Below, piece after piece: positions 7,880 to 37,806 of a stretch of DNA of 43,490 nucleotides. Under the pieces are notes generated by a model. It saw only the letters and a program-made list of their open reading frames with translations. It did no database searches and had not been told where the DNA came from. The number at the start of each line of letters is the position of its first letter. Within the stretch, counting starts at the first letter, position 1. Location of the stretch: contig CADBFE010000016.1 of NCBI GenBank assembly GCA_902793845.1, positions 1 to 43,490 of the forward strand, in the 5' to 3' direction. The stretch comes from an uncultured Lachnospiraceae bacterium. Lineage in GTDB: Bacteria > Bacillota > Clostridia > Lachnospirales > Lachnospiraceae. A program made the position numbers and the translations under genes.

Positions 7880-9238
7880 ATGAGTGATTATTATTGTACA
7901 AATTGTGGTGCGGATCTTGAACTTCAATGGGGGTTTGACCCCGATGGAGATTATTGGACATGCACGGAATGTGGGAAGTTTTTGACAAATCCTGGTGAGG
8001 ATTTTTACGAGGGTGAGCGATTTGAAGAAGTTGCTTGGGTTTGTGATTGTTGTGGCGCATTATTGAATAAACAAATTGGATTTTCGGATTATTATGATAC
8101 CTGGATTTGTTCAGAATGTGGATATTCTAATGATATTTCCGAGGATAATATTTATGGTTCTGAGGCAGAGTATCAAGCAAGCAGATATGACGACGATTAC
8201 GATGATGACGACGATGACGACGACGATTACGATGATGACGACGATGACGACGACGATTACGATGATGACGACGATGACGACGACGATTACGATGATGACG
8301 ACGATGATTACGATGATGACGACGATTACGAAGATGATGACGATGACGACAATGATTACGAAGATGATGACGATGACGACGATGATTACGAAGATGATGA
8401 CGACTATATTAAACAATACAATGATGAAGATGTAGAAATAATACATAATGGAAGAAAATTAACGAGACAAGAGGCTGAAGAGATGGCGTCATATATGGAA
8501 AAGACTATGACGGGTGCATTTAAGGTATTTTCGGAAAATCCTTTTTTTAATGGTGTAAATAATAAAACTAATAATTCATATAGTAAATCACAAGTAAAGA
8601 ATAGTAATACTTCAACACATAATAATTCAGAGAATTATAAAAAAACACCAGAGGAATTAAAAAACGAATCACGGTTGGTTTTATTCTTTTTTGTATTTAT
8701 ATGTATAGCTTTTCTTGGGTGTTGGTTTTATTGGCGAATTAAATATGAAATTGGAATTGAAGCCGGAATGTCTGCGAAGAAGATTATTGGTATGAATTAT
8801 GAGGAAGTAGTTGAAGAATTGTCGGAATCAGGATTTGAAGATATTAACTGTGAACCAATATATGATTTAAGCATTAAGGACATTGAACTTGAATACACTG
8901 TTGCAAAAATTACAATAGATGGGGAAAAGGGGTTCAAAGCAACAGATAGATTTCATTATGATTCCGATATTATAATTGAATATCATGCAGTAAAAGATGT
9001 AGCATTGCCTATTTCTTCGGATAAAACTCAGAAAATGAATTATGAAGAACTCGTTTCGATTTATAAAAACGCCGGTTTTGTGAATATAGTTGTTGTGCCA
9101 CAAAATGACTTGATAACGGGCTGGATCACCAAGGATGGATCGGTCGAGTCTGTAACTGTTGATGGAAATGCGGAGTTCTCTGCAGGTGATTGTTATCGCC
9201 CGGATGTAGCAATCGAAATCATGTATCATACATTTTAA
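7880..9238 (+). CDS. Membrane protein with tandem zinc ribbons, poly-aspartate linker and PASTA-like C-terminus
   Basis: 452 residues from the ATG at 7880 (AAAGGG just upstream). Two zinc ribbons use Cys6/Cys9/Cys28/Cys31 and Cys55/Cys58/Cys77/Cys80. Residues about 105-175 are almost pure Asp with periodic Tyr. A transmembrane helix lies near 268-288 (LVLFFFVFICIAFLGCWFYW). Two repeats follow that begin MNYEEVVEELSESGF and MNYEELVSIYKNAGF, typical of PASTA-like modules. The likely topology is ribbons and the acidic tract inside, PASTA-like repeats outside. The second ribbon is a paralogue of the small protein at 13255. The function is unknown. Confidence 0.75.
   Translation: MSDYYCTNCGADLELQWGFDPDGDYWTCTECGKFLTNPGEDFYEGERFEEVAWVCDCCGALLNKQIGFSDYYDTWICSECGYSNDISEDNIYGSEAEYQASRYDDDYDDDDDDDDDYDDDDDDDDDYDDDDDDDDDYDDDDDDYDDDDDYEDDDDDDNDYEDDDDDDDDYEDDDDYIKQYNDEDVEIIHNGRKLTRQEAEEMASYMEKTMTGAFKVFSENPFFNGVNNKTNNSYSKSQVKNSNTSTHNNSENYKKTPEELKNESRLVLFFFVFICIAFLGCWFYWRIKYEIGIEAGMSAKKIIGMNYEEVVEELSESGFEDINCEPIYDLSIKDIELEYTVAKITIDGEKGFKATDRFHYDSDIIIEYHAVKDVALPISSDKTQKMNYEELVSIYKNAGFVNIVVVPQNDLITGWITKDGSVESVTVDGNAEFSAGDCYRPDVAIEIMYHTF
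8187..8405 (+). repeat. Asp-codon microsatellite
   Basis: GAC/GAT codons in a roughly 27-base period, each unit punctuated by a TAC tyrosine codon. The 5' units are identical and the 3' units have diverged with GAA and AAT. The tract encodes the poly-Asp linker and should be prone to length change by slippage. Confidence 0.95.
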
Positions 9239-33822: not shown

Positions 33823-34314
33823 ATGGACAAGGACATGACTTACAGCGAAATTTACACTTATGTTAAGAGTGCAGTTGCCAAGAAAAACGTTAAGAAGCTC
33901 GGCAACGTTGCAATCTCAATCTACGTTACAGACGAGGGAGCTACAGGCGAGTTTTACATCGCAGTTAAAGACGGCGAGCTCGAGATTGAGAACTTCAAGT
34001 ATGAGGATTACACAGCTCATCTTTCAATCAGCAGCGCAGATCTCAAGAAGATCGTAGACGGCAAGAAGGTTTCATACAGCTTTGATGACGGAGACGATGC
34101 TCAGGGCAAGGCTCTCATCGCAGCTCTTGTAGCAACAGCACCTGCAAAGGCTCCTGCCAAGGCAGAGGCTAAGAAGGCACCTGCAAAGAAAGCACCTGCA
34201 AAGAAGGCAGCTCCCGCTAAGAAGGCTGAGGAGAAGAAAGCAGAAGCACCCAAGGCTGAAGCAAAGAAAGCAGAGCCTGCAAAGAAGGCACCTGCAAAGA
34301 AAGCTTCTAAATAA
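33823..34314 (+). CDS. SCP2-like domain fused to a histone-H1-like Lys/Ala/Pro tail
   Basis: 163 residues. Residues 5-103 form an SCP2 sterol-carrier-like fold (VAISIYVTDEGATGEFYIAVKDGELEIENF, then AHLSISSADLKKIVDGK). Residues 108-163 are almost only Ala, Lys, Pro and Glu in KKAPAKKAPAKKA-like units, resembling the C-terminus of histone H1 or bacterial H1-like proteins. An in-frame ATG at 33835 is an alternative start with better ribosome-binding spacing. Codon use is like the pfl genes, suggesting high expression. Role unknown: lipid binding with nucleic-acid or surface contact is inference. Confidence 0.75.
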   Translation: MDKDMTYSEIYTYVKSAVAKKNVKKLGNVAISIYVTDEGATGEFYIAVKDGELEIENFKYEDYTAHLSISSADLKKIVDGKKVSYSFDDGDDAQGKALIAALVATAPAKAPAKAEAKKAPAKKAPAKKAAPAKKAEEKKAEAPKAEAKKAEPAKKAPAKKASK

Positions 34315-34375: not shown

Positions 34376-34564
34376 TTATCCGTTAACCTTTGCAAGAAGG
34401 TCATTTACGTCAATGCCGTGTACCATGGCAGCTTCCTCAAGGGTCTCACCCTGGGATGCGGGACATCCGAGACAGTGCATACCGATCTCAAGGAGAGCAG
34501 GTGCGATGTCGGGGTTGATCATGAGTGCTTCGCCGATTGTTGTATCTTTTGTTATCTCAGCCAT
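34376..34564 (-). CDS. DUF1858 redox-disulfide-type small protein
   Basis: 62 residues. It matches the DUF1858 domain: an N-terminal [27 protein letters not shown] segment with a CLGC pair and a short helical end. The family is tied to hybrid-cluster and other anaerobic redox proteins. GGAGG lies eight bases before the start on the minus strand. It is transcribed away from the pfl genes and shares their intergenic region. Confidence 0.85.
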
Positions 34565-34864: not shown

Positions 34865-34895
34865 CAAAAATATACTTTTATAGGAGGCATTTCAA

Positions 34896-36947
34896 ATGAG
34901 TTATGAAATGAAGCCCGAATGGGAAGGTTTCAACGACGGCAAGTGGTGCAAAGAGATCAATGTACGTGATTTCATCCAGAGAAACTACACACCTTATGAT
35001 GGTGATGATTCGTTCCTCGTAGGCCCCACACAGGACACAAAGGATCTTTGGGAGCAGGTTCTTGATCTTTCAAGACAGGAGAGAGAAGCAGGCGGCGTTC
35101 TTGATATGGATACAAAGGTTGTTTCTACCATCACTTCACACGGTCCCGGATATCTTGACAAGTCAAAGGAGAAGATCGTAGGTTTCCAGACAGATAAGCC
35201 CTTCAAGCGTTCTATGCAGCCTTACGGCGGTATCCGTATGGCAGAGAAGGCTTGTGCAGATAACGGATACACAGTAGATCCCGAGATTTCCGAGTTCTTC
35301 TCAACACACAGAAAGACACACAACGCAGGATGCTTCGATGCTTACACACCTATGATGAGAGCATGCCGTTCATCACATGTTATCACAGGTCTTCCCGATG
35401 CTTACGGACGTGGACGTATCATCGGTGACTACAGACGTGTTGCACTTTACGGTATCGACAGACTTATCGAGGATAAGGAAGCTCAGAAGGAGTCAACAGG
35501 ACGTGTTATGACAGATGATGTTATCCGTCTTCGTGAGGAGCTTTCAGAGCAGATCACAGCTCTCAAGATGATGAAGGAGATGGCTGCTTCTTACGGATGC
35601 GATATCGCAAGACCTGCTAAGAACGTACAGGAAGCTATCCAGGCTACATACTTCGGATACCTTTCAGCAGTTAAGGAGCAGAACGGTGCAGCTATGTCCC
35701 TCGGACGTACATCTACATTCATCGACTGCTATGCAGAGCGTGACCTTAAGAACGGTACATTCACAGAGGAGCAGATCCAGGAATTCGTAGATCACTTCAT
35801 CATGAAGCTTCGTTGCGTTAAGTTCGCTCGTACACCTGAGTACAACCAGATCTTTGCCGGCGATCCCGTGTGGGTAACCGAGTCACTCGGTGGTGTTGGT
35901 GTAGACGGACGTCACATGGTTACAAAGACTTCATTCAGATACCTCAACACACTTAACAACCTTGGTGCAGCTCCCGAGCCTAACCTTACAGTTCTCTGGT
36001 CAACAAGACTTCCCCGTCCCTGGAAAGAGTTCTGTGCCAAGATGTCTATCCGTTCTTCATCTATCCAGTATGAGAACGATGACCTCATGAGAGTAACACA
36101 CGGTGATGACTATGCTATCGCTTGCTGCGTATCTTCAATGAGAGTTGGTAAGGAAATGCAGTTCTTCGGTGCAAGAGCTAACCTTGCTAAATGTATGCTT
36201 TACGCTATGAACGGTGGTATCGATGAGGTTACCAAGAAGCAGGTAGGACCTAAGTACAGAAAGTACGAAGGCGATGTTCTTACATATGACAAGTTCATGC
36301 CTATGTTTGAGGATATGATGGAGTGGCTTGCAGAGACATATGTCAACACACTCAACATCATCCACTACATGCACGACAAGTACTGCTACGAGAGAGCACA
36401 GATGGCTCTTCACGACAGAGATGTAAGAAGATACTTCGCAACAGGTATCGCAGGACTTTCAGTTGTAGCTGACTCACTCTCAGCTATGAAGTATGCAACG
36501 GTTAAGCCTATCAGAGATGAGGACGGCGTGATCGTTGACTTCGAGACAACAGGTGATTTCCCTAAATACGGTAATGATGATGACAGAGTTGACTCAATCG
36601 CTCAGGATATCGTATCACTCTTCATGAAGATGATCAGAAGACATCATACATACAGAGACGGATTCCCGACACAGTCAGTTCTTACAATCACATCTAACGT
36701 TACATACGGTAAGGCTACAGGTAACACACCTGACGGACGTAAGAAGGGACAGCCTTTCGCACCCGGAGCTAACCCTCTCCACGGAAGAGACAGCCACGGT
36801 GCAGTTGCATCACTTTCTTCAGTAGCTAAGCTTCCTTTCATGGATGCTCAGGACGGTATCTCTAATACATTTACCATCATCCCCGGAGCACTCGGAAAAG
36901 AGGATACTGTATTCGCAGGTGACATCAACGTAGATCTTAATAAATAA
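34896..36947 (+). CDS. pflB: Pyruvate formate-lyase body lacking the glycyl-radical domain
   Basis: 683 residues; E. coli PflB has about 759. The protein matches PflB from the N-terminus ([30 protein letters not shown]) to near [14 protein letters not shown]. The active-site Cys410-Cys411 pair is in [13 protein letters not shown]. It then ends in INVDLNK exactly where PflB goes on into the glycyl-radical domain. The missing part is encoded at 37242. The reaction is pyruvate plus CoA to acetyl-CoA and formate, in the cytoplasm, needing a PFL-activating enzyme that is not in this window. AGGAGG precedes the ATG. Codon use points to high expression. Confidence 0.95.
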
Positions 36948-36998
36948 TTTAAGATATCTGATATAAAAGCTTTGGATCAATCAAAGGAGGTAACGGTC

Positions 36999-37220
36999 AT
37001 GGAAAATGAAAAGCTAACGGATGATCAGATGATATCCGACCTGGTTGCCCAGCTCGATGCGGGCTTCGCAAACGGTGTTGGTCATGTAAACGTAGGAACT
37101 GAAGAAGGACAGGCCGGCAGCAGATCAGTTCAGACTATGGGTTGCACAGACTGTTCCCGTACGCCTCTCGCATGCAGCGTACCCACCTTTGAAGATCCGA
37201 GACTTGACGATTATAAATAA
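36999..37220 (+). CDS. 73-residue protein between the two pfl parts, radical-domain-like N-terminus and Cys tail
   Basis: AAAGGAGG sits nine bases before the ATG at 36999. The first half, ISDLVAQLDAGFANGVGHVNV, resembles the start of the glycyl-radical protein ([23 protein letters not shown]). The radical loop RVSGYAV is not present. Instead the tail holds MGCTDCSRTPLACS, with cysteines at positions 49, 52 and 59, then an acidic end. It is tightly placed in the pfl transcript (51 bases after the body, 21 before the radical domain). I know no described family. A regulatory, protective or metal-binding subunit is possible. Confidence 0.8.
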   Translation: MENEKLTDDQMISDLVAQLDAGFANGVGHVNVGTEEGQAGSRSVQTMGCTDCSRTPLACSVPTFEDPRLDDYK

Positions 37221-37241
37221 TTATTACAGGAGGAAAATAAA

Positions 37242-37487
37242 ATGGCAGACGCAAGCAAAGCACAGATCAACAATCTTGTTTCATTATTGGACGGCTATGC
37301 TACAAAGGGTGGACATCACCTTAATGTTAATGTACTTAACAGAGAAACACTTATCGATGCTCAGAAGCATCCCGAGAACTATCCTCAGCTCACAATCCGT
37401 GTATCAGGATACGCAGTAAACTTCATTAAGCTTACTCCCGAGCAGCAGGCTGATGTAATCTCTCGTACATTCCACGAGTCAATCTAA
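37242..37487 (+). CDS. Stand-alone glycyl-radical domain of pyruvate formate-lyase
   Basis: 81 residues, equal to the last part of PflB. It has [19 protein letters not shown], then [15 protein letters not shown] with the radical Gly56, and ends [13 protein letters not shown]. It is not a damage-repair duplicate as GrcA/YfiD is, because the body at 34896 has no such domain of its own. The two proteins must therefore assemble to give activity. AGGAGG precedes the ATG. The transcript ends at a strong terminator. Confidence 0.93.
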
Positions 37488-37509
37488 TCCTTATATAGGG
37501 CATAAAAAA

Positions 37510-37558
37510 TACCCCCTGACGCTAAGCACAAGCGCAATGCGTCAGGGGGTATTTTTTT
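37510..37558. terminator. Terminator of the pfl operon
   Basis: Perfect 13-base stem TACCCCCTGACGC / GCGTCAGGGGGTA followed by T7 and preceded by A's. The next 250 bases to 37806 show no gene. Confidence 0.95.
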
Positions 37559-37806
37559 ATGCCGTTTGGAAAATATATAATTGGATTCGAAGGGGAGGGG
37601 GAATGTACTTAGATTCATCTTGGGTAAAAAATAGGTGCAAAGGAAAAGGTGGTAATGTGGGGGAATAATGAAAAAGATGGGATTTTTACGAATCAAGAAA
37701 ATAAAGAAATCAGGGTATTTTCTTGGGGAAATAATTGCAGAAATATGGTAAAATATTGAAGTGTGTATGATAGTATGCCGATAGACTATATTGGTATTTT
37801 CAAATT

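Follow-up and report, generated by a model that had tools for sequence, protein, structure and literature searches.

A pyruvate formate-lyase made in pieces in Lachnospiraceae and the small cysteine-bearing protein encoded between them

Described systems and the split locus

Pyruvate formate-lyase (PFL) is a main route by which anaerobes convert pyruvate to formate and acetyl-CoA, and oxygen cuts its chain at the radical glycine. In the described enzyme PflB (TIGR01255; E. coli structure PDB 1h16), body and radical domain form one chain. A free radical domain is known from YfiD/GrcA (PDB 6owr, TIGR04365), which acts on a PFL without a working one; excerpts of the E. coli work present it as a spare for a complete PflB, with a disordered 60-residue N-terminus (PMC8683613). 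In addition, NCBIfam holds a model that spans the radical domain alone (NF038360, 'autonomous glycyl radical cofactor GrcA3'), and two PDB chains of formate acetyltransferase (38la and 38lb, with 687 and 739 residues) had no radical-domain match; both appear from their sequences to be split bodies, which may be natural or trimmed constructs. Small Cys-bearing partners have been described for other glycyl radical enzymes (GREs), namely the gamma subunit of 4-hydroxyphenylacetate decarboxylase (HPAD), the beta and gamma subunits of benzylsuccinate synthase (BSS), and the beta, gamma and delta subunits of (1-methylalkyl)succinate synthase (MASS), which bind Fe-S clusters or Fe and have HiPIP-like or rubredoxin-like folds. 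Excerpts of a 2025 PNAS structural paper name accessory subunits among GREs only for these three enzymes (PMC12358834).

The window analyzed here, a stretch of 43,490 nucleotides from an uncultured Lachnospiraceae bacterium, encodes on the plus strand a PFL body, a small protein designated MID (the gene between), and a free glycyl-radical subunit, in this order (Table 1). The first-pass annotation had described a 683-residue body that keeps Cys410-Cys411 and ends before the radical domain, and an 81-residue protein with Gly56 in RVSGYAV that supplies the missing domain, and both descriptions were borne out. The body scores above the curated TIGR01255 cut-off (994.2 bits) with the adjacent cysteines kept, and its match stops short of the end of the model, the radical domain being absent from the chain and encoded by a separate gene. 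The small subunit covers the remaining model positions and passes the curated GrcA3 cut-off, whereas against the YfiD/GrcA model it reached 102.7 bits (cut-off 170). Alignment to E. coli PflB extends over residues 7-680 for the body and 681-758 for the free subunit, placing the split point near E. coli residues 680/681. Strand beta10 has been placed within E. coli PFL residues 696-733, according to excerpts of PMC8683613; since the break precedes this barrel strand, the strand belongs to the small subunit as well, and the earlier placement of the break in the linker between barrel and radical domain had to be amended, as it does not simply separate the two. Together, body and subunit are predicted to be a pyruvate formate-lyase converting pyruvate and CoA to formate and acetyl-CoA.

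Table 1. Features of the split PFL locus, with positions in the window
Feature	Position	Strand	Evidence
Shine-Dalgarno of body gene (AGGAGG)	34882..34887	+	longest match 6 bases
PFL body, 683 aa, without radical domain	34896..36947	+	TIGR01255 1087.6 bits, model positions 1-665 of 744
Catalytic Cys410-Cys411 codons of body	36123..36128	+	
Shine-Dalgarno of MID (AAGGAGGT)	36984..36991	+	longest match 8 bases
MID, 73 aa, radical-less paralogue of radical domain with Cys module (C49, C52, C59)	36999..37220	+	same-place homologues, N-half homology, dN/dS
Cys module of MID, C49 to C59 (CTDCSRTPLAC)	37143..37175	+	C52, C59 invariant in 31 MIDs
Shine-Dalgarno of free radical subunit (AGGAGG)	37228..37233	+	longest match 6 bases
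Free glycyl-radical subunit (GrcA3 type), 81 aa	37242..37487	+	NF038360 159.6 bits, cut-off 158; TIGR01255 positions 663-744
Radical Gly56 codon	37407..37409	+	RVSGYAV; G56 invariant in 31 free subunits
Intrinsic terminator hairpin with T run	37500..37562	+	-41.2 kcal/mol, z -9.7

The good ribosome-binding sites noted earlier for body and free subunit, and the strong terminator after the last gene, were likewise recovered, the latter as a very stable hairpin followed by a T run that folding revealed and that the terminator scan did not list. A promoter scan returned 9 sites against 8.0 expected and was not used. As the three open reading frames of the window lie in one frame and are separated by just two TAA codons, misread stops are a fair worry, and the split could in principle be an artefact or a decaying gene. 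This worry is removed by the other split loci, in which the frames of the genes vary. The Shine-Dalgarno sites, low dN/dS values and the same architecture in 58 of 150 genomes also contradict such an explanation, leaving it a practically negligible probability, and the earlier judgement that two intact genes are not sequencing damage stands. Two side observations concern the upstream neighbourhood: a divergent gene next to the PFL body (34376-34564, minus strand) encodes a 62-aa DUF1858 protein with a CLGC motif, and positions 33823-34314 (plus strand) encode an SCP2-domain protein with a lysine/alanine-rich, histone-like tail.

The genome from which the window derives (94.9% complete, 146 contigs) contains one PF02901 match and one PFL body, and a search for another full-length pflB found no other PFL. 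PF01228 matched three times, and of these matches just the free subunit is both complete and above the cut-off, in line with the first reading of it as the only radical domain; the third, sub-cut-off match lies in what is presumably an anaerobic ribonucleotide reductase, followed by its activase. A spare-part role as for YfiD/GrcA, which coexists with a complete PflB, does not apply, no complete PFL having been found in this genome. A single PFL-activating enzyme scored over the cut-off (TIGR02493, 292.1 bits; cut-off 231.75), and its gene lies on another contig (C82) rather than beside the window genes. As read from its sequence, the only PFL found in this Lachnospiraceae-type genome is thus a heteromer, and its body would need a radical domain in trans.

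Distribution and ancestry of split enzymes

A family sample of 150 genomes from 149 genera was searched for TIGR01255 matches at E<=1e-80, and split and full-length forms were sorted from the resulting table. Split PFL, defined as a body ending near position 665 plus a free radical subunit, was present in 58 genomes (four of the bodies being broken by contig ends or frame) and full-length PFL in 59, three of which also have the split form; four genomes had PFL fragments only and 32 had no match at this threshold. No full-length PFL was found at E<=1e-80 in 55 of the 58 split genomes, and with one body in the window's own genome, a second PFL copy was set aside as an explanation. A PFL-activating-enzyme homologue occurs in the retrieved flanks of 54 of the 57 other family split loci. 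The free subunits carry R[VI]SGYAV in 58 of 58 cases (31 of them were taken into alignment A2), and A-C-C is kept in all 78 split bodies examined, which comprise the 58 of the family and 20 class-level loci (3 of these 20 from the same family). In a class-level sample of 391 Clostridia genomes, free GrcA3-type domains in short frames (78-106 aa) were found in members of at least nine families, and split PFL is also present in Clostridia families beyond this one. The split had earlier been treated as a singular case, a view that these counts and the existence of the GrcA3 model overturn: many gut and rumen bacteria make PFL in pieces, with the radical-carrying piece as its own small protein.

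A second free radical domain is present in at least eight of the 58 split genomes, with one body found in each; these extra GrcA3-type domains (L150, L153-L159; L labels denote loci and G labels genomes) include one at a contig end that may be an assembly near-duplicate (L159). At locus L100, a PFL-activating-enzyme-like gene lies between body and free radical subunit, and the MID-like gene of that genome (L143, weak) is on another contig.

A tree of 127 bodies built with a quick method, from which short or broken bodies (L120, L121, L264, L271) and second copies of L061 and L051 (L123, L124) were left out, united 73 of the 74 split bodies, PDB 38lb and six full-length proteins in a single supported clade. 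Outside this clade stood the bare split body L278, with PDB 38la beside it. The six nested full-length PFLs all have the Gln typical of split subunits in the radical domain, compared with 0 of 45 other readable full-length rows; the position was unreadable in 2 of the 58 split subunits and in 2 of the 47 other full-length rows. In L050, which is one of the six, a Cys-rich linker, CGCEEVTC, joins the body to the radical domain. Forcing all split bodies into one clade was marginally rejected (p-AU 0.043, for a group chosen after seeing the tree). Given the six nested proteins with the split-type Gln, both re-fusion and several independent splits are possible; re-fusion would be the simplest reading of the sequences. 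Within the genus of the window, another genome (G004) has a full-length one-chain PFL of a different clade (L122), suggesting that the two forms of PFL, split and one-chain, substitute for one another inside a single genus.

The gene between and the cysteine module

The gene between body and subunit had been cited only as proof against sequencing damage, whereas it turned out to be a conserved component of the locus. MID of the window starts with ATG at 36999, and a homologue occupies the same gap at 35 of the 58 family split loci (L090 included). The order body, MID, radical subunit on one strand holds in 76 of 81 loci, namely the window and 80 loci from named genomes, which are the best 80 of 444 relatives from a pattern scan; in L260, from another family of the class, MID follows the radical subunit. 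Alignment A1 holds 31 of the 35 local family MIDs (L076, L077, L085 and L090 were left out), in which D20, G28, C52, A58, C59 and P62 are invariant. Median dN/dS was 0.065 for MID (235 pairs), 0.065 for the free subunit and 0.057 for the body (first 40 of 56 bodies; only pairs 80-97% identical), and MID is thus under purifying selection like the enzyme.

No entry of its own was found for MID in Pfam, NCBIfam or PHROGs: the window protein matched nothing in Pfam and PHROGs and gave a single chance-level match in NCBIfam (E 0.037), none of the 31 MIDs matched Pfam, and the MID profile retrieved two PDB chains at E 0.26 and 0.41, both taken as chance, with no matching MID chain. However, its N-half is homologous to the first third of the radical domain (33 columns against the free subunit, hhalign probability 95.6, E 1.2e-8, with 0 of 200 column shuffles as good), and the GrcA3 model weakly matches 18 of the 31 (best 8.6e-7). 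The homology covers this half only, and the radical-glycine motif R-x-S-G(-Y) is absent from 31 of 31 MIDs, implying that MID is a paralogue of the N-terminal part of the radical domain without the radical loop. Structure prediction of MID alone gave one helix and a remainder without regular structure (pLDDT 58.8), and the body-MID-subunit chain read through the two TAA codons with a shallow alignment reached pLDDT 47; neither model was used. Proteins of 65-90 aa with a MID-like start and the ending YHHGRCDVGSP[WF]A were also observed (L144-L147, L149, and L141 in the window's own genome, contig C79, ~8017-8133); their gene neighbours vary, and two members tested had no NCBIfam match.

In its second half, MID has a cysteine module whose end is A-C-x2-P, and many split bodies that lack a neighbouring MID have a comparable module at their C-terminus, for example GDLDLDRIEDCKDLACNIPNIEDSIDNE in the L066 body. 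Comparison of a profile of 19 such tails (alignment A7, 19 of 30) with the MID C-half gave E 2.5e-9, with 0 of 200 shuffles as good. The A-C-x2-P ending is present in 22 of the 30 Cys tails, and the other eight depart from it, some retaining just a CC pair. Tails with at least two Cys occur in 0 of 42 bodies with a local MID vs. 30 of 36 without (Fisher 5.7e-16, a value inflated by relatedness). The MID/tail state changes at least eight times on the tree, and among five well-supported independent pairs the tail went the opposite way in about three and the same way in none; as the phylogenetic sign test did not reach significance (median p 0.25), the exclusion between cis and trans forms is partly shared ancestry.

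All 58 family split genomes have either MID (37) or a Cys tail (21), as do 16 of the 20 class-level split loci. Six bodies have neither a local MID nor a Cys tail (L115, L100, L264, L273, L274, L278); a MID-like gene lies elsewhere in the genomes of L115 (E 7.1e-22) and, weakly, L100 (5.5e-6), and no MID was found at E<=1e-8 in those of the other four, so the module is not universal (4 of 78 loci without it). Two of the 35 local family MIDs (L077, L085) stop before the A-C-x2-P half. In the 37 MID-bearing split genomes, MID lies beside the body in 35 and on other contigs in two (one a weak match, E 5.5e-6). At E<=1e-10, MID was detected in 39 of the 150 genomes, of which 36 have a split body, two yielded a free subunit and no whole body (G022, G128), and one, 67% complete, yielded neither (G006). 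None of the 56 full-length-only genomes has MID; in two of these, what the profile matches is just the genome's own radical domain. It could be argued that MID is a passenger without a role in PFL, given its location on another contig in G002 and, weakly matched, G130, the altered order in L260, and the four split loci without the module. Nevertheless, its absence from the full-length-only genomes of the sample, its homology to the radical domain and the exchange of its C-half for a body tail make this very unlikely.

The cysteines themselves may serve other ends, a structural one among them. They could form a thiol redox switch or act as sacrificial thiols, in which case the module would not be a loading factor: by reacting with oxygen, or by quenching stray glycyl radicals of subunits that are not docked, they would keep the idle split enzyme safe under air. 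C52 and C59 do not vary among the 31 MIDs of A1, two Cys are likewise invariant across the 19 aligned tails, 20 of the 31 MIDs contain CxxC, and every genome of the family sample that has MID also has split parts, except for the incomplete G006, all of which would suit such a role; the Cys spacing, however, differs between MIDs and tails, which is unusual for a fixed disulfide, and the idea is regarded as plausible but rather unlikely. MID or the tail might also bind a metal or an Fe-S cluster, as do the Cys-rich small subunits of HPAD, BSS and MASS, which are likewise small accessory proteins with Cys ligands. In excerpts of the structural paper, MASS beta and delta have four ligands per chain; the role proposed for BSS beta is to keep the radical domain in place and gate it, and that for MASS delta is to regulate it (PMC12358834). 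By comparison, 11 of the 31 MIDs have two Cys and 20 have three, Cys tails mostly have two (21 of 30), the CX2CXnCXnC ligand pattern of the Fe-S/Fe accessory subunits is absent from MID, and the MID profile had no convincing PDB sequence match (best E 0.26). The few cysteines argue against a four-ligand site within one chain, although a site shared by two chains is possible, and metal binding is on the whole improbable.

Proposed working and comparison with known systems

The moderately favored interpretation, which draws on sequence comparison, is that the PFL is heteromeric and its radical subunit exchangeable, and that a Cys module, in cis or in trans, would load or gate this subunit. The activating enzyme would put the radical on Gly56 while the free subunit is docked on the body, the docked subunit would set the Gly loop beside C410-C411, and the complex would then work like one-chain PFL. 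As PFL is cleaved by oxygen at its radical glycine, splitting the enzyme may let the cell cheaply replace an 81-residue part rather than the whole enzyme.

Loading in trans is where the module may come in. In excerpts of the E. coli study, binding of YfiD to PFL cut after residue 695 (696-733 removed) was undetectable by ITC and the radical was 32-fold lower, but after activation the truncated enzyme was fully active (PMC8683613). Natural split bodies end earlier in the homologous chain and must have solved subunit binding and activation. Since all 58 family split genomes have the Cys module and full-length-only genomes are without MID, this module would be the best candidate for the solution. 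It is proposed to be the loading and gating element for the trans subunit, filling the role of E. coli residues 696-733. The N-half of MID, which duplicates the helix and beta10 segment, would dock MID at or near the radical-domain site, and the conserved thiols may make docking oxygen-sensitive. Tail-type bodies lack this N-half, implying that the beta10 copy is not essential. A fuller scenario is offered only tentatively, at somewhat below even confidence: MID would be a duplicated radical domain that lost the radical loop, gained a thiol module and became a loading dock and oxygen gate for the exchangeable radical subunit, the module would have moved repeatedly between a separate gene and the body C-terminus, and some lineages would later have re-fused, as the seam linker of L050 may indicate.

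No paper on split PFL, GrcA3 or MID was found in the open-access literature among the matches listed (subscription journals and preprints lay outside the scope). Given that body and small subunit belong to PFL and GrcA3, respectively, and that two PDB chains seemingly represent split bodies, specialists probably know of the split as such; what would be new is a PFL partner that arose from the radical domain, so that the novelty would lie in MID and the cis/trans Cys module. These findings imply that in 58 of 150 family genomes the vulnerable radical part is a separate, possibly replaceable subunit. Split PFLs should also be helpful as natural systems for asking how a trans radical subunit is recognized and activated, which the E. 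coli YfiD work did not settle, and MID constitutes a family of small proteins that has no entry in Pfam, NCBIfam or PHROGs, the libraries covered here.

Compared with one-chain PflB, the window thus has two chains plus MID, with a radical subunit that would be loaded in trans. Its free subunit aligns to YfiD over residues 21-81 and, unlike YfiD, lacks the N-terminal extension and is the only complete radical domain found in its own genome. The E. coli cPFL:YfiD complex contains two copies of the beta10 strand, and here the N-half of MID would likewise bring a second copy. In comparison with the accessory subunits of HPAD, BSS and MASS, to which it is similar as a small Cys-bearing partner of a GRE, MID has fewer cysteines, arose from the radical domain itself, and is the companion of a PFL.
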